Shown here: piece by piece, positions 4,672-19,373 of the stretch
Layout: every line of letters begins with the position of its first letter
Numbering within the stretch: position 1 is the first letter of the stretch
Source: Thiogranum longum
Lineage (GTDB): Bacteria; Pseudomonadota; Gammaproteobacteria; DSM-19610
Length of the DNA stretch: 64,000 nucleotides
Assembly: GCF_004339085.1 (NCBI RefSeq)
Contig: NZ_SMFX01000001.1
Coordinates: forward strand, 505,580-569,579
Reading direction: 5' to 3'
Translations under genes and position numbers: made by a program
Notes under the pieces: model-generated
Database searches by the model: none
What the model saw: the letters and a program-made list of their open reading frames with translations, nothing else
Told to the model about the DNA's origin: nothing

Positions 4672-4874
4672 TGAACGCGAGTGATCTTCGTGCGAAATCA
4701 GCCGATGAGCTGAAGCTTGAGCTTGATGGCCTGTTGAAGGAGCAGTTCAATCTGCGTATGCAGCAGGGATCCGGTCAGCTGACACGTCCTGATCAGGTGA
4801 AAAAGGTACGCCGCGACATCGCGCGTATCAAAACCGTATTGAACGAGAAGGCCAAAGCAGGTGAAGCGGCATGA
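4671..4874 (+). CDS. rpmC: 50S ribosomal protein L29
   Basis: This 67-residue, two-helix protein is L29 (uL29), recognised by [15 protein letters not shown] and [19 protein letters not shown]. It sits beside L23 at the tunnel exit. I chose the ATG at 4671, which shares its first base with the rplP stop; a GTG one codon earlier (4668) is in frame but unnecessary. The 3' end overlaps the rpsQ start by four bases (ATGA). Confidence 0.97.
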
Positions 4875-5134
4875 GTGAAGACAGCAAGACAATCCGTACG
4901 CTGACCGGCCTGGTCGTCAGCGACAAGATGGAAAAAAGTGCAGTGGTGAAGGTTGAGCGCAAGGTGCGCCATCCGCTGTACGGCAAGTACATCCGTCGTT
5001 CAACCAAGCTGCACATTCATGACGAAAACAATGAATGCCGCGCCGGTGATACGGTATCCATTAAACAATGCCGACCGCTGTCCAAGAATAAATCCTGGAC
5101 ACTGGTTGAAGTCGTCGATCGGCCTGCTGGCTGA
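4871..5134 (+). CDS. rpsQ: 30S ribosomal protein S17
   Basis: The 87-residue OB-fold protein is S17 (uS17), with [20 protein letters not shown], the [12 protein letters not shown] loop and [18 protein letters not shown]. It is a primary 16S rRNA binder of the 30S body. It overlaps rpmC by ATGA. It is the last gene of the classical S10 operon; rplN follows after 34 bases, where no convincing promoter or terminator was seen, so transcription probably runs into the spc genes. Confidence 0.98.
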
Positions 5135-5168
5135 TTGAACCAAAGAATTGCTTGAACGGGGTTAAGTC

Positions 5169-5537
5169 ATGATCCAGATGCAGACCAAATTGGATGTCGC
5201 AGATAACAGCGGCGCCCGTCGTCTCCAGTGCATTAAGGTACTGGGCGGCTCGCACCGACGTTATGCCGGTATCGGCGATATCATCAAGGTGAGTATTAAA
5301 GAGGCGATCCCTCGTGGCAAGGTCAAGAAGGGTGAGGTCTACAACGCTGTTGTGGTGCGTACTGCCAAGGGTGTACGTCGCCCTGACGGCTCCCTGATCC
5401 GCTTCGATGGTAATGCAGCGGTACTGCTGAATGCCAAGCTCGAGCCGATCGGTACCCGCATCTTTGGCCCGGTTACGCGCGAACTTCGCAGTGAACGGTT
5501 TATGAAGATTATTTCGCTTGCACCTGAAGTGCTGTAG
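5169..5537 (+). CDS. rplN: 50S ribosomal protein L14
   Basis: The 122-residue protein has the exact usual length of L14 (uL14), starting [18 protein letters not shown] and ending near [15 protein letters not shown]14 forms part of the subunit interface (bridge B8 region) and is the docking site of the silencing factor RsfS. It is the first gene of the spc group. The ATG follows a GGGGTTAAG stretch. rplX comes 15 bases later. Confidence 0.98.
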
Positions 5538-5552
5538 GCGGGAGTCAGGATT

Positions 5553-5873
5553 ATGCGCAAGATACGTAAAGGCGACGATGTCGTTGTGATGACAGGCAAG
5601 GATAACGGCAAGCGCGGTAACGTGCTGAAGGTACTGCCTGAAGCTGACAAGCTGATTGTGGAAAACGTCAATATCGTGAAGAAGCACACCAAGCCCAATC
5701 CGCAGGCGGGTGTTTCCGGTGGCATCATCGAGAAAGAGATGCCGATTCACGTGTCCAACGTTATGTTGTACAACCCGCAGACCAAAAAAGGTGACCGCGT
5801 TGGCTTCCGTACGCTGGAAGATGGACGCAAGGTGCGAGTATTCAAGTCTAACGACGAAGTCGTAGACGTCTGA
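5553..5873 (+). CDS. rplX: 50S ribosomal protein L24
   Basis: This 106-residue protein is L24 (uL24). The KOW motif is visible at residues 3-30 ([20 protein letters not shown]), followed by the typical [20 protein letters not shown] segment. L24 is an assembly initiator that binds the 5' end of 23S rRNA. Its spacing (15 bases after rplN, 14 before rplE) places it in the spc operon. Confidence 0.98.
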
Positions 5874-5887
5874 GAGAGTAGCTGAAG

Positions 5888-6427
5888 ATGGCCAGGTTGC
5901 AAAAACAGTATCACGACGAAGTTATCGGCAAGCTCCAGGAGCAGTTCGAGTACAAGAACTCCATGGAGATACCGCGCATTACCAAGATCACCATTAACAT
6001 GGGTGTTGGTGAAGCACTCGGTGACCGCAAGGTGATGGAACACGCAGTGTCAGATATGACAAAAATTTCCGGTCAGAAACCGATTGTGCGCAATGCGCGC
6101 AAATCCGTGGCGGGCTTCAAGGTGCGGGAAGGCTGGCCTATTGGCTGTAAGGTGACGCTTCGTCGGGAACGCATGTACGAGTTCCTGGATCGCCTGGTTT
6201 CCATTGCGATTCCGCGTGTACGTGATTTCCGCGGGATGAGCCCGAAGTCTTTTGACGGCCGAGGCAATTACAACATGGGCGTGAGTGAGCAGATCATTTT
6301 CCCCGAAATCGATTACGACAAGATTGATACCTTGCGTGGTATGGATATCAATATCACTACCACGGCAAAAACCGACGAGGAAGGTCGTGCGCTGCTGGCA
6401 GCGTTCAACTTCCCGTTCAGGAACTGA
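5888..6427 (+). CDS. rplE: 50S ribosomal protein L5
   Basis: The 179-residue protein matches the E. coli length of L5 (uL5) and contains [16 protein letters not shown], the [18 protein letters not shown] segment and the [21 protein letters not shown]-terminus. L5 binds 5S rRNA and makes the B1b bridge to S13. The gene sits between rplX and rpsN with short gaps, as in the standard spc order. Confidence 0.98.
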
Positions 6428-6439
6428 GGAAAAGGCACG

Positions 6440-6745
6440 ATGGCCAAACAATCCATGATCCAGCGCGAAATCAAACGCGCCAAGATGGTCAAGAAATACG
6501 CGACAAAACGTACGGCGCTGAAGGCGATCATCGCCGATGCGGGCAAGTCTGAAGAGGAGCGCTACGAGGCTCAGCTGAAGTTGCAGGCACTGCCACGTAA
6601 CGCCAGTCCATGCCGTCAGCGCAATCGTTGTCGCATTACCGGTCGCCCGCACGGTTACTACCGCAAGTTTGGTCTTGCGCGTAACAAGCTGCGTGAACAT
6701 GCCATGCAGGGCGATGTGCCTGGCCTGGTCAAGGCCAGCTGGTAA
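6440..6745 (+). CDS. rpsN: 30S ribosomal protein S14 (zinc-free form)
   Basis: The 101-residue protein is the long, zinc-independent form of S14 (uS14): it has [21 protein letters not shown] and ends PGLVKASW, but lacks the paired CXXC of the 61-residue zinc form. S14 packs into the 30S head with S3 and S10. It lies 12 bases after rplE, with GAGGAAAAGG as Shine-Dalgarno. Confidence 0.97.
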
Positions 6746-13916: not shown

Positions 13917-14648
13917 ATGATCGCAATCATGACCGACTTCGGTGTTTCCGGGCCATACATTGGCCAGATGCGGGCTGTTATTCACGCGCAAGCGCCTGGC
14001 GTGGATGTGGTTGATCTGTTTCCCGATCTCCCGGCCTGTAACGTGAAGGCCGCCGCCTACCTGCTACCGGCCTACACGCAGTATCTTCCCGAGGGGACGG
14101 TGTGTCTGTGTGTGGTTGATCCTGGTGTGGGGACTCATCGCAGGGCACTTGCCTTGCAGATTGACAGGCGTTGGTTTGTCGGGCCGGACAACGGGCTCTT
14201 TAGTGTGCTGCTCAATCGTGGAGAGGAAATAACAACAAAGGAAATCCATTGGCGCCCCGATCAGTTATCTGACAGTTTTCATGGGCGTGATCTGTTTGCA
14301 CCGGTCGCTGCAAGACTGGCGAAGGGGGTTGATGATGGAATTGAAACGATCGAGGCCGGAGCGCTGGTTATGCCGGACTGGCCCGATGAGTTGTCTGAAG
14401 TGATATATCTCGACAGTTTCAGCAATGCCATTACCGGGCTGACGGCGACAGATTTGCCGGAGACGACCGTGCTCGAGGTTGCCGGTTATCAATGTCAGTA
14501 CACCCGAACCTTTGCCGAGGCCGGGCCTGGCCGGCTTTTCTGGTATAGAAATTCAAATGGGCTGGTGGAAATTGCCATGAACCAGGCAGGCGCTTCGGAA
14601 AAGACGGGGATTCGCGTTGGCGATACCATCAGAATCGTATCGAACTGA
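13917..14648 (+). CDS. SAM hydroxide adenosyltransferase family protein (DUF62)
   Basis: The 243-residue protein matches the fluorinase/chlorinase-related family whose common bacterial members hydrolyse S-adenosylmethionine to adenosine and methionine. Visible family marks are the N-terminal TDFGVSGPYIGQMRAVI, the VDPGVGTHRRALAL loop, FVGPDNGLFS and the FHGRDLFAPVAARLA segment; the last third forms the C-terminal domain. The protein is a little shorter than typical members (250-280 residues). A second in-frame ATG at 13929 would trim four residues. The physiological role of this family is poorly settled. The gene stands alone between a repeat and an unknown membrane-protein gene. Confidence 0.88.
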   Translation: MIAIMTDFGVSGPYIGQMRAVIHAQAPGVDVVDLFPDLPACNVKAAAYLLPAYTQYLPEGTVCLCVVDPGVGTHRRALALQIDRRWFVGPDNGLFSVLLNRGEEITTKEIHWRPDQLSDSFHGRDLFAPVAARLAKGVDDGIETIEAGALVMPDWPDELSEVIYLDSFSNAITGLTATDLPETTVLEVAGYQCQYTRTFAEAGPGRLFWYRNSNGLVEIAMNQAGASEKTGIRVGDTIRIVSN

Positions 14649-14666
14649 CATGATGCAGGAGGGCGT

Positions 14667-15254
14667 GTGAAAAAGCTTGGAGATAACCTGTTGCTTTTAT
14701 TTCTGACCGCAGTCGTTGTGGTAGGCGGTTATGCGTACCTGCGTTATGCCTACAGGGTAACTGACAGCACACCTTTCACCCAGGAGATCGTACTTATCAT
14801 CCTGGGGACAGTTGCAACCATTCTTATTACTGCAGCGCTCCTCAATAAACAGTCTGCGGTGGAAATTGATAAAGAGCAGAGTGTTAAATTTATCGATTTG
14901 AAGACGCGGACCTACGAAGAACTGATTAATCAGATAGAACAGATAGTGTTGTCAAAGGAAGTCACTGACAGGGACCTGGTGCGCTTGCAGTTTACGACAC
15001 ATCGGCTGGCAATATTTGCAGCCCCGGCAGTGCTCGAGGAGTACCAGGAGTTTTTGCGTGTGTTCAATCGCGCTGCAGTGGACGGTGCGGTTTCCGCAAT
15101 TGAATCAGACCAGTTGACTGACTCGTTGGCCAGATTGACGGTTGAGATTCGGGCAGATCTGATTGGCGAACTGGATCGTGAAAGTGATATTGGGCTTCAG
15201 AAAATCGCAGAACAGATTGTAGAAAACGCCAGTGAGACAACGGGTCGTGGCTGA
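14667..15254 (+). CDS. Unknown membrane protein with two N-terminal helices
   Basis: I do not recognise this 195-residue protein. Two hydrophobic segments (about residues 7-24 and 39-60) form a hairpin at the N-terminus; the remaining 130 residues are acidic, rich in helix formers and probably cytoplasmic, with a predicted coiled-coil flavour (YEELINQIEQIVLSKEV). It starts with GTG at 14667 after GCAGGAGGGC, a strong Shine-Dalgarno, 18 bases after the SAM hydrolase-type gene, so the two are likely cotranscribed. No catalytic motif or cysteine cluster is visible. The gene after it points the other way. Confidence 0.75.
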   Translation: MKKLGDNLLLLFLTAVVVVGGYAYLRYAYRVTDSTPFTQEIVLIILGTVATILITAALLNKQSAVEIDKEQSVKFIDLKTRTYEELINQIEQIVLSKEVTDRDLVRLQFTTHRLAIFAAPAVLEEYQEFLRVFNRAAVDGAVSAIESDQLTDSLARLTVEIRADLIGELDRESDIGLQKIAEQIVENASETTGRG

Positions 15255-15269
15255 CCGGCGTGACAGGTG

Positions 15270-15806
15270 TTATTTGCTACCGGCTTCATCGATTAACTGC
15301 TGAATCAGCGCGCGAACGTCAGGGTGATTGAAATTGCGCCCCCCCACGGCGCGGTAGACAACACGCCCCTGCTTGTCGATCAACAGGGTGGTAGGCAGAC
15401 CTTTTACGCCGTAACTGTCCGAAACACTGCTGTCGCGGTCAAACAGGATGGGGAAGGTCGGGTATACATCCAGTTGTCCCATATAGGAAAAAACGTGGTC
15501 CGGGGATTCCCACTGGTTGATCGCCAGCACAATAAAATCTTTATCGCGCAGTGACTGGTACACAGCCTCCATGGACGGAATTTCTTCCCGGCAAGGCGGG
15601 CACCAGGTTGCCCAGAAGTTGATCATGATGACTTTGCCACGCAGTGATGACAGCGTGTATTTCTCGCCATCCATGTCTTCCAGGGTGAAGTCCGGGGCAG
15701 GAACGGGTGTGGGCAATCGTGACAGTGTATGTCCCAGCGCCGCATAGGATGTCGAAGACGCAAAACAGGTCAGTACCAGGGCGGCGGCGGTAAGGAAATT
15801 ACGCAT
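15270..15806 (-). CDS. TlpA-like periplasmic thioredoxin
   Basis: The 178-residue protein has a signal peptide (residues 1 to about 22, MRNFLTAAALVLTCFASSTS) and an AhpC/TSA-Redoxin type thioredoxin fold of the TlpA/ResA class. The active site is WCPPC (C69, C72), and the cis-proline loop reads GVKGLPTTLLID. Such proteins reduce or supply disulfides in the periplasm, often for cytochrome c or copper-site maturation. The start at 15806 is chosen because it begins the signal peptide and overlaps the stop of the upstream gene by eight bases. A longer in-frame reading to 16016 has no signal peptide and is rejected. Confidence 0.9.
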   Translation of the reverse strand: MRNFLTAAALVLTCFASSTSYAALGHTLSRLPTPVPAPDFTLEDMDGEKYTLSSLRGKVIMINFWATWCPPCREEIPSMEAVYQSLRDKDFIVLAINQWESPDHVFSYMGQLDVYPTFPILFDRDSSVSDSYGVKGLPTTLLIDKQGRVVYRAVGGRNFNHPDVRALIQQLIDEAGSK

Positions 15807-16356
15807 CGGGTGTTTTCGCCGGTGCGCAGTGAACAGCTTCGATTTTTTCTTCATGGGTTTTATCTCCCTGCGTCCAGGAATAGTACAGGTCAAAAACGCT
15901 ACCTGCCGGTAGTGGTACGGTCGTGAATCCCTGTCCCCAGTCGCCGGGTTGATAGGTCTGCTCCTCGTGCAGGAGTACCCAGCGGAATGCGAGACTGCGG
16001 TCTTTCCACTCTTCAAGCCACTGTGTCTTGGTTTTCAGGTGGTGCGTTTTGCCGTCGGGTGTAACGTAGCGCCAGTCGGACAGGTTGTAATGTAATGGCT
16101 GATGGCCGGTGTTCTTCAGAATGGTGCCGAAGGTGCAGTAGTCTCGCGTGGTATCGACAATATCTTCCGGCAATCCACGTGCACTGAACACGGCAGCGAC
16201 ATAATCGGGTGACAGGGGCAACAGTCGCAGGCTGAATCCAGGGTGTTCCACCTGGATGCGCTCTATGCCGGATTGCGGGTTGAATTCACGCTGCACTTCG
16301 GCCGCGTTTACAAGTAACGGCCAGAGCAGGCAGATTATGATTGGGCTGTAGCGCAT
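15799..16356 (-). CDS. Unknown exported protein with two cysteines
   Basis: I do not recognise this 185-residue protein. It has a signal peptide (MRYSPIIICLLWPLLVNAAE) and a mature part with only two cysteines, C74 (DYCTF) and C177 (VHCAP), plus many aromatic residues (W95, W113, W117, W126, W140, W161) suggestive of a beta-rich fold. Its stop overlaps the start of the TlpA-like gene by eight bases, so the two are translated together. A reasonable inference is that the two cysteines form a disulfide handled by that thioredoxin. An upstream in-frame ATG at 16416 lies near a repeat and gives no signal peptide at the terminus. Confidence 0.8.
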   Translation of the reverse strand: MRYSPIIICLLWPLLVNAAEVQREFNPQSGIERIQVEHPGFSLRLLPLSPDYVAAVFSARGLPEDIVDTTRDYCTFGTILKNTGHQPLHYNLSDWRYVTPDGKTHHLKTKTQWLEEWKDRSLAFRWVLLHEEQTYQPGDWGQGFTTVPLPAGSVFDLYYSWTQGDKTHEEKIEAVHCAPAKTPDA

Positions 16357-16391
16357 GTTTCCTCGCGGGGAGCATGAAATTACCGGCGCAC

Positions 16392-16473
16392 TGTCATTGC
16401 GAGCCAGGCACGGCAATCTCTCCGGGCTTCATTGCGGATACCTTACCCTTCAGTTCAAGGCATCGCAATGACA
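16392..16473. repeat. CGTCATTGCGAG-type MITE, composite copy
   Basis: The 82-base element has perfect nine-base inverted ends TGTCATTGC / GCAATGACA and the CGGCAATCT core typical of the CGTCATTGCGAG repeat family. Its right half (16423-16463) is, on the opposite strand, a 41-base module found again at 62766-62806 with three differences. It lies between the 3' end of uvrA and the next minus-strand gene. Confidence 0.75.
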
Positions 16474-16523
16474 AGGGCGCTTTGATGAAGCAGGATTTTT
16501 TTCTCAGACGGTACCCGCATCGG

Positions 16524-19373
16524 TCAGGCGGCATCTGTATCGGAATCACTTCGTTCCCGCTCCAGTATCGGGCGAAGAAAGTGCCCGGTGTGCGAGATTT
16601 TACTGTCCGCGACCCGTTCCGGTGTGCCGGTGGCGATAATCTCGCCACCGCCATTCCCGCCTTCCGGGCCAAGGTCGATCACCCAGTCCGCTGTTTTGAT
16701 GACGTCCAGGTTATGTTCGATGATAACTACAGTGTTGCCGTGGTCACGCAGGCGATGCAGTACGCGCAGCAGTTGTTCGATATCGTAGAAATGCAGTCCG
16801 GTGGTAGGTTCGTCAAGAATATACAAGGTCTTGCCGGTATCACGCTTGGATAATTCACGTGACAGCTTGACGCGTTGCGCTTCGCCGCCGGACAGCGTGG
16901 TGGCGTTCTGCCCGAGGCGCAGGTAGGAAAGTCCAACATCCAGCAAGGTTTGTAATTTCCGTGAAATTACCGGTACGGCACTGAAAAATTCTGCTGCGAC
17001 CTCAACTGTCATTTCCAGCACTTCGTGGATATTGCGCCCCTTGTAACGAATATCCAGCGTCTCGCGGTTATAGCGCTGGCCCTTGCAGACATCGCAAGGG
17101 ACGTAGATGTCAGGCAGGAAATGCATTTCAACCTTGATAACGCCGTCGCCCTGACAAGCCTCGCAGCGGCCACCTTTAACGTTGAAGCTGAACCGTCCCG
17201 GTTTGTAGCCTCGTGAACGAGACTCCTGGGTGCCGGCAAACAGTTCGCGGATAGGTGTAAACAGGCCGGTGTAGGTGGCCGGGTTTGAGCGCGGTGTGCG
17301 ACCGATGGGGCTCTGGTCGATGTCCACCACCTTGTCGAACTGTTCAAGTCCGTCCACTGAAGCATACGGGGCTGGTTCGGTGCTGGCGCCATTCAGTTCC
17401 GCCGCCACGAGCCGGTATAGCGTATCGTTGATCAGGGTGGACTTGCCGGAGCCGGAAACGCCGGTGACACAGGTCATCAGGCCAACCGGGATGTCCAGGT
17501 CCACATCTTTCAGATTGTTGCCACTGGCCTTGAGAATACGCAGCTGGTGCTGTGGGTCATTGGGTGTGCGTTGGTCCGGTCCGTGGATACGCCGCGCACC
17601 ACTCAAATATTGCCCGGTCAGCGATGCCGGGTTGTTGATGACGTCCTCCGGGGTACCCTGCGCCACGATCCTGCCGCCGTGTATGCCGGCGCCCGGGCCC
17701 ATATCGACCAGGTGGTCGGCGGAGCGGATGGCATCCTCGTCGTGCTCGACCACGATGACGGTGTTGCCGAGGTCACGCAGGAAAGTCAGCGTGTTGAGCA
17801 GTCGCTGGTTGTCGCGCTGGTGCAGGCCGATGGAAGGCTCATCGAGGATATACATGACACCGACCAGCCCGGCGCCAATCTGGCTGGCGAGGCGAATGCG
17901 CTGTGCTTCACCACCAGACAGGGTGTCGGCGCTACGTTCCAGTGACAGGTAGTTGAGCCCGACATTGACCAGGAAATCCAGACGGTCACGAATTTCCTTG
18001 ACGATTTTTTTGGCAATGGCGCCACGTCGGCCAGGCAGTTGCAAGCCGGCAAAAAAATCGCTCGCTTCACCTACCGGCAGAGCTGCAATTTTCGGAAGCG
18101 TGCAGTCATTGACGAATACGTTGCGCGCTGACCGGTTGAGGCGTGTTCCTTCGCATTCAGGGCAGGGGTGCGTGCTCAGATAACGTGCCAGTTCGTCACG
18201 CACCACGTTTGATTCGGTTTCGCGGTAGCGCCGTTCCATGTTGCGCAGAATGCCCTCGAAGGGATGCCGCTTGACCTTGATGCCGTTGCGTTCGTTGATG
18301 TAGCGGAACTCGATTTGCTCACGGCCACTTCCGTACAGAATAATTTGCTGGATGTGTTCTTCCAGCTCATCGAACGGTGTTTCAATATCGAAGCCATAAT
18401 GATCCGCCAGCGAGCTGATGAGCTGGAAATAATAGGCGTTGCGCCGGTCCCAGCCGCGTACTGCACCACCGGCCAGACTCAGGTGCGGGTTGGCAACCAC
18501 GCGCTTCGGGTCGAAAGACTGCTGGACGCCAAGTCCATCACAGGTCGGGCAGGCGCCAATCGGGTTGTTGAACGAGAACAGCCGGGGTTCCAGCTCAGTC
18601 AGTGAATAGCCGCATTTCGGGCAGGCGAACTTGGCGGAAAATGTGACCTCTGCCTTGTCGTCCATATTGACTACCCGCGCCAGACCATCGGCGAGACGCA
18701 GTGCGGTTTCAAAGGATTCGGCAAGCCGTAGTTTGAGGTCGTCACGGATCTTGAATCTGTCGACTACCACTTCGATACTGTGCTTGCGGCGCAGGTCCAG
18801 TTCAGGCGGATCGTCCAGTTCCACCACTTCGCCATCAATTCGTGCACGTATAAAACCGTGAGCGCGCAGCTCTTCAAGTAACGCCAGGTGTTCACCCTTG
18901 CGATCCTGGACTACCGGAGCCAGCAGCATCCAGCGCGAGCCGTCAGCCTGTTCCAGCACGTGATCAACCATCTGACTGATGGTCTGTGCTTCCAGGGTGA
19001 TGCCGTGTTCGGGGCAACGTGGTGTGCCGACGCGTGCAAACAGCAGGCGCAGGTAGTCGTAAATTTCGGTAATGGTGCCGACTGTCGAGCGTGGATTATG
19101 CGAAGTGGACTTCTGTTCAATAGAGATGGCCGGCGAAAGACCTTCGATATGGTCGATGTCGGGTTTCTCCATCATCGACAGGAACTGGCGCGCATAGGCG
19201 GACAGGGATTCCACGTAACGGCGCTGGCCTTCCGCATAAATGGTATCGAACGCCAGCGAGGATTTACCGGAGCCGGACAGGCCGGTAATCACGATCAGCC
19301 GGTCACGCGGCAGGTCGAGGTCGACGTTTTGCAGATTGTGCGTGCGCGCACCGCGCAGGCGAATGGTATCCAT
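16524..19373 (-). CDS. uvrA: UvrABC excinuclease subunit A
   Basis: The 949-residue protein is UvrA, the damage-sensing ATPase of nucleotide excision repair, which loads UvrB. Both ABC cassettes are complete: Walker [15 protein letters not shown] near residue 31 and [16 protein letters not shown] in the second half, with signatures [14 protein letters not shown] and [15 protein letters not shown]. Zinc modules appear as [24 protein letters not shown] and [15 protein letters not shown]. The length fits the E. coli protein (940). It is divergent from an MFS gene; I found no LexA box (CTGT-N8-ACAG) in the short gap between them. Confidence 0.99.

Follow-up and report, generated by a model that had tools for sequence, protein, structure and literature searches.

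Comparison across genomes shows that the genes of a TlpA-type thioredoxin and of an exported two-cysteine protein, termed P1 in the following, belong together, that both cysteines of P1 are invariant, and that natural fusions of the two proteins exist, all at the level of sequence. As the pair is kept together across many bacteria and is occasionally fused, it very likely works as one redox unit outside the inner membrane. To the more specific reading, a dedicated periplasmic thiol-redox unit in which P1 would serve as the dedicated redox partner of TlpA, we give about even chances. Periplasmic TlpA-type thioredoxins are common, and few of them have known partners. TlpA-type reductants with particular partners are already known as such; the P1 family, an almost obligate and occasionally fused partner, is unnamed in the Pfam and NCBIfam copies that were searched, and we recognized no description of the pair in searches of the open-licence PMC literature. 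The view of an initial annotation, made from the DNA alone, that this small redox unit is not obviously described agrees with this.

The overlapping genes and their products

The window, i.e., the whole stretch of 64,000 nucleotides that was analyzed, corresponds to C1:505580-569579 of a one-contig 2.9-Mb genome. Both genes lie on its minus strand, P1 at 15799..16356 (185 residues; characterized by translation, Pfam/NCBIfam scans, and AF2) and TlpA at 15270..15806 (178 residues; translation, Pfam/NCBIfam scans, and alignment), and their sequence bears out the eight-base overlap noted initially, which reads ATGCGTAA on the minus strand at 15799..15806 and comprises the TlpA start and the P1 stop. 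A simple sigma-70 scan of positions 14500-16700 returned no promoter-like site, a null result that is uninformative. On the plus strand, the end of a convergent ORF of 195 residues with a possible N-terminal transmembrane segment (14667-15254) is separated from the TlpA stop by 15 bases.

Judged by eye, the N-termini of both proteins resemble Sec signal peptides, in agreement with the first reading, and span approximately residues 1-18 of P1 (16303..16356, minus strand) and 1-22 of TlpA (15741..15806, minus strand). Among the 179 unique P1 homologs whose matched domain spans 140 residues or more, the N-terminus is strongly hydrophobic in 177, and a loose lipobox-like motif is present in 19. 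The thioredoxin indeed carries the WCPPC sequence, with the CPPC active site (C69, C72) encoded at 15591..15602 on the minus strand, and W68, both cysteines, and P138, presumably the cis-proline, are invariant in 47 aligned P1-linked TlpAs. It scores 101.4 bits against PF00578 (AhpC-TSA; cut-off 26) and 99.3 bits against PF08534 (Redoxin; cut-off 26.6), and with its WCxxC motif, conserved proline, and AhpC-TSA/Redoxin domain it is a TlpA/ResA-type thioredoxin. Unlike a TlpA in the strict sense, it stays below the NCBIfam cut-off for TlpA (89.4 of 230 bits), as it does for ResA (123.3 of 170) and DsbE (61.2 of 123.15). The TlpA profile has 16 matches in this genome, the two best of which are the P1-linked copies. 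There are also two DsbD_TM matches, one of them inside a 760-residue DsbD-like frame, and such DsbD-like proteins could feed electrons to TlpA.

P1 has three cysteines, of which C9 lies within the signal peptide, so that the mature form has only C74 (codon 16135..16137, minus strand) and C177 (codon 15826..15828, minus strand), exactly as first noted. Conservation of these two had been proposed as a check on the pair, and it is complete: among 184 unique homologs examined, C74 is a cysteine in 181/181 that cover the column, C177 in 180/180, and both are kept in 179/179 that cover both positions. In 178 of these 179, there is no further cysteine from residue 25 on; in one complete homolog (L069), a third one lies close to the N-terminus, and five of the 184 are truncated or degenerate (L017, L185, L224, L225, L226). 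The invariant columns in 53 aligned P1 proteins, whose identity to P1 drops to 21%, are C74, N82, W95, G143, and C177. As W95, which is kept in 184/184 unique homologs, is as constant as the cysteines, the invariance of the latter is by itself no proof of a redox role.

P1 belongs to no family that we could find by sequence. It had no match in Pfam and NCBIfam up to E 10, and the families found with the 53 homologs were each matched by one member only, at best E 0.011 or worse. The SoxY domain PF13501 was found neither in P1 nor among the 12 families matched by these homologs, and DUF4369 was absent from the Pfam scans of P1 and of the 53 homologs. There was no match for P1 in PHROGs, and none for P1 or TlpA in PADLOC; sequence searches of the PDB gave chance-level matches only, and tblastn detected P1 in no plasmid record.

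Linkage and partner types across genomes

P1 homologs were found in 43 of 144 relatives, a count that includes the own genome. Of 370 genomes sampled from the class, 78 carry one, corresponding to 61 of 272 genera, as do 6 of 397 genomes sampled from the phylum (own genome again included); three of the 78 rest on partial matches alone (G211, G246, G352). The initial annotation had named two outcomes that would refute it, free variation of the cysteines and rare adjacency of the two genes; neither was observed, and the adjacency is nearly complete. A profile re-scan of loci taken from 70 of 79 places in relatives, the best 80 of 136 relatives, 95 of 111 places from the class, and 5 further places from the phylum gave 226 P1 places, and 219 of them have a same-strand TlpA-like domain within 1000 nt downstream, whereas three of the other seven are cut by contig ends and four lack TlpA. 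Of the 184 unique loci, 177 have a TlpA-like gene directly behind P1, three are cut by contig ends, and four lack it. At 22 further places from the relatives and the class, kept separate from these counts, TlpA follows directly in 22/22, and the two domain cysteines are present in all. The median gap from the end of the P1 domain to the start of the TlpA domain is 37 nt. Since the TlpA profile has 16 matches in the 2.9 Mb of the own genome, few genes picked at random would have a TlpA gene next downstream, and the linkage of P1 exceeds chance. Two of the TlpA-less loci are fragments (L224, L225), and two are true exceptions (L068, L148), in which both cysteines are kept and no TlpA adjoins.

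When the window TlpA was used as the query, 29 of the 30 matched loci had P1. P1 was absent beside 14 other TlpA loci that had been chosen for having no known P1 neighbor, and these include relatives of similar closeness to the window TlpA (L271, L273, L275). The dependence read from these loci is thus one-sided: P1 almost never occurs without TlpA, and TlpA occurs without P1. Natural fusions within a single ORF come from two genomes that belong to one genus (L021, L187), where a lipobox-like N-terminus is followed by P1 with both cysteines, a linker, and TlpA with WCPPC; as judged by eye, there is no second signal peptide.

The trees of P1 and TlpA correlate with r=0.86 over 173 unique pairs, as compared with a maximum of 0.157 in 200 permutations, a measure that ignores species relatedness. 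Sub-types of P1, assigned by motif patterns with nine proteins left unclassified, correspond to the active site of the partner: QGF/NWGM-type P1 is accompanied by a CPPC thioredoxin in 133/133 cases, and EGGN-type P1 by a CGPC, CAPC, CRPC, or CIPC thioredoxin in 31/31. The own genome carries one pair of each sub-type. At this level of comparison, the pair has been inherited and duplicated as a unit.

Two further loci may be described here. The second pair of the own genome, outside the window at C1:597496-598511 (L055), consists of a P1 of the EGGN type and a TlpA with CGPC. In L148, a Sulfuriflexus MAG, a plus-strand frame of at most 400 residues (locus 4862-6522) terminates in a P1 domain that has both cysteines; this frame directly follows a sigma-70-type gene (Sigma70_r2 and r4). 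The N-terminal part of this frame has one hydrophobic segment and no Pfam match, and it looks anti-sigma-like by position and by eye only; the P1 domain has possibly been reused there as a redox sensor.

Predicted fold and gene context

The AF2 model of P1 (pLDDT 92.5, pTM 0.85) consists mostly of beta strands plus three helices, with C74 opening one strand and C177 placed just past the last strand, and the predicted fold is an Ig-like beta-sandwich. Its nearest solved folds are Bacillus subtilis YcdA (Z 9.3; Foldseek E 6.6e-4, at low TM-scores and with unrelated rows close behind) and YjhA (Z 8.6), followed by adaptin appendages, ApaG, and PCuAC domains; the model also resembles viral proteins named DUF4352. 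Although Ig-like sandwiches of the DUF4352, ApaG, and PCuAC kinds are thus the nearest predicted folds, P1 has no sequence match to them and does not contain the PCuAC motif. As all fold matches are weak, with TM at most 0.42 by query length and at most 0.51 by target length among the matches listed, we assign P1 to no fold family. When a natural fusion was modeled with AF2, its TlpA half came out close in fold to the reductant ResA (Z 22.4); the overall pTM of 0.67 and a pLDDT below 50 at linker residues 199-217 leave domain orientation and interface unfixed. Mean-field coevolution with 179 P1 homologs recovered some beta hairpins and no reliable C74-C177 signal. The fusions put an extra N-terminal domain before a TlpA-type thioredoxin, as do Bacteroidetes thioredoxins with an N-terminal DUF4369 domain, from which they differ in that P1 does not match this domain.

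No third family appears to be fixed to the pair: in the neighborhood analysis, which relied on rough gene calls (longest open frames), none was present in more than nine of 80 loci, apart from the presumed P1, TlpA, and antisense clusters. The P1 carriers include, by record title, Thiohalobacter, Thiogranum, Thiohalophilus, Sedimenticola, Thiolapillus, Sulfuricaulis, Thiomargarita, and tubeworm symbionts, and many are titled only Gammaproteobacteria; we take the named genera and symbionts to be sulfur oxidizers. A gene of the metallo-beta-lactamase fold lies near the pair in L023, L024, L137, L141, and L155, where Pfam detects Lactamase_B only and where we presume a persulfide dioxygenase. As these loci come from two genomes of one genus only, we rejected this gene as a general partner of the pair.

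Mechanism, rival readings, and meaning

In the mechanism that we propose, P1 would be exported, and probably lipid-anchored in some relatives, and its C74 and C177 would most likely be linked by a reversible disulfide. TlpA would be held reduced by a membrane transporter of the DsbD/CcdA type and would in turn reduce the disulfide of P1; once reduced, P1 would act on a periplasmic target, protect it, or supply it with electrons or sulfur, and this target probably belongs to sulfur oxidation. Apart from linkage, fusions, invariant cysteines, and the matching trees and sub-types, the closeness of the TlpA half of the fusion to the reductants ResA and Bradyrhizobium TlpA speaks for this mechanism, as do the DsbD-like frame of the genome, the near-universal presence of SoxY in P1 genomes, and the ArsR-rhodanese regulators upstream of some pairs. 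We infer the disulfide, the electron exchange and its direction, the link to DsbD, and the target. The initial annotation had suggested that P1 may be the substrate of the thioredoxin or a dedicated redox carrier. The tight coupling of two apparently exported proteins on which this was built stands, reinforced by the invariant cysteines, the linkage, and the fusions; P1 may be a substrate of TlpA, a carrier that hands on electrons or sulfur, or an adaptor with a structural disulfide. Against a dedicated redox unit, a structural disulfide would fit the invariance as well, given the equally constant W95; the two P1 genes without TlpA and the TlpA relatives without P1 also speak against it, as do the unfixed domain orientation in the fusion model, the missing coevolution signal between C74 and C177, and the lack of a fixed third gene that would name a pathway.

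The main rival, which we consider possible but doubtful, is that P1 is a non-redox adaptor whose C74-C177 disulfide is purely structural and whose Ig-like surface, like an extra domain, holds TlpA or presents the real substrate of TlpA. The fusions would be expected of such a domain, and so would the weak resemblance of the fold to interaction domains (adaptin appendages, ApaG), the structural look of the invariant N82, W95, and G143, and the existence of relatives of TlpA that manage without P1. However, retention of both cysteines in every one of the 179 homologs, at identities that fall as low as the alignment of 53 indicates, would be more than is usual for a stabilizing disulfide, and on this point we prefer the redox partnership.

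Two other readings start from known systems. In the parts of PMC10451225 that concern SoxS/SoxW with SoxYZ and SoxV, a dedicated periplasmic thiol-disulfide protein maintains the activity of a cysteine protein of sulfur oxidation. P1 could similarly be a SoxYZ-like carrier or guard of sulfane sulfur, which TlpA would free of wrong disulfides in the way that SoxS serves SoxYZ, a reading that we regard as improbable. P1 genomes do carry SoxY nearly throughout, in 75 of 78 as opposed to 124 of the 292 without P1 among the 370 class genomes (Fisher odds ratio 34, p 4e-20, with kinship ignored; genomes drawn with the same settings as for the class-wide P1 search). Regulators that combine an ArsR-type HTH with a rhodanese domain point the same way: they were seen in 7 of 37 scanned upstream neighbors. 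A search with one of them placed such a regulator immediately upstream of the pair and on its strand in 8 of 80 named-record loci (L076, L086, L095, L097, L110, L112, L114, L139), with Pfam confirmation of the domains for L110, and close by in opposite orientation in L135, L144, and L170. Yet P1 has no SoxY match, and it has two cysteines, whereas SoxY has a single one on its C-terminal arm. SoxY was also absent among the matches listed for the neighbors (25 families each for 37 upstream and 34 downstream), no sox gene was found beside the window pair, and the SoxY gene of the own genome lies far away at C1:620801. The 124 genomes with SoxY and without P1 count against this carrier and against the dedicated redox unit alike.

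For Bradyrhizobium, PMC6696091 describes, in the parts relevant here, TlpA as the periplasmic reductant of ScoI and COX II (CoxB), partners with paired cysteines, and H(M)X10MX21HXM as the copper motif of PCuAC. Our pair shares the TlpA-type periplasmic reductant, and the TlpA half of the fusion is close to Bradyrhizobium TlpA in fold (Z 19.9). P1 might be a copper chaperone that joins TlpA in assembling CuA, a task in which PCuAC and Sco cooperate with TlpA elsewhere; the weak structural similarity to PCuAC domains (Z 6.2-6.7) and a slight enrichment of COX2 in P1 genomes of the same 370-genome draw (69/78 vs. 211/292, p 0.003, kinship ignored) would agree with this. Unlike ScoI and COX II, however, P1 belongs to neither family, is a fixed operon partner, is occasionally fused, and has no conserved histidine: in the alignment of 179 homologs the best histidine column reaches 17% and the best methionine column 65% (the next 17%), and the PCuAC motif is absent from the family. 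With nine of 78 P1 genomes also devoid of a COX2 match, we set the copper chaperone aside as highly improbable on account of the lack of a conserved histidine and the incomplete COX2 linkage.

Returning to the redox partnership, a bolder version, which we think unlikely, would make P1 the founding member of a periplasmic family of redox or sulfane-sulfur carriers that pass electrons from their own TlpA to the extracytoplasmic sulfur-oxidation machinery, or take sulfur from it, with the two-cysteine Ig-like domain reused as a sensor on a membrane protein beside a sigma factor in L148. In any case, the genomes themselves point to a partner for TlpA, as an unannotated family is nearly always found beside it, and a reductase and an exported protein that were both orphans become one testable unit. 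Its carriers, nearly all of which possess sulfur-oxidation genes, have to cope with reactive sulfur in their periplasm and to keep thiols safe there.
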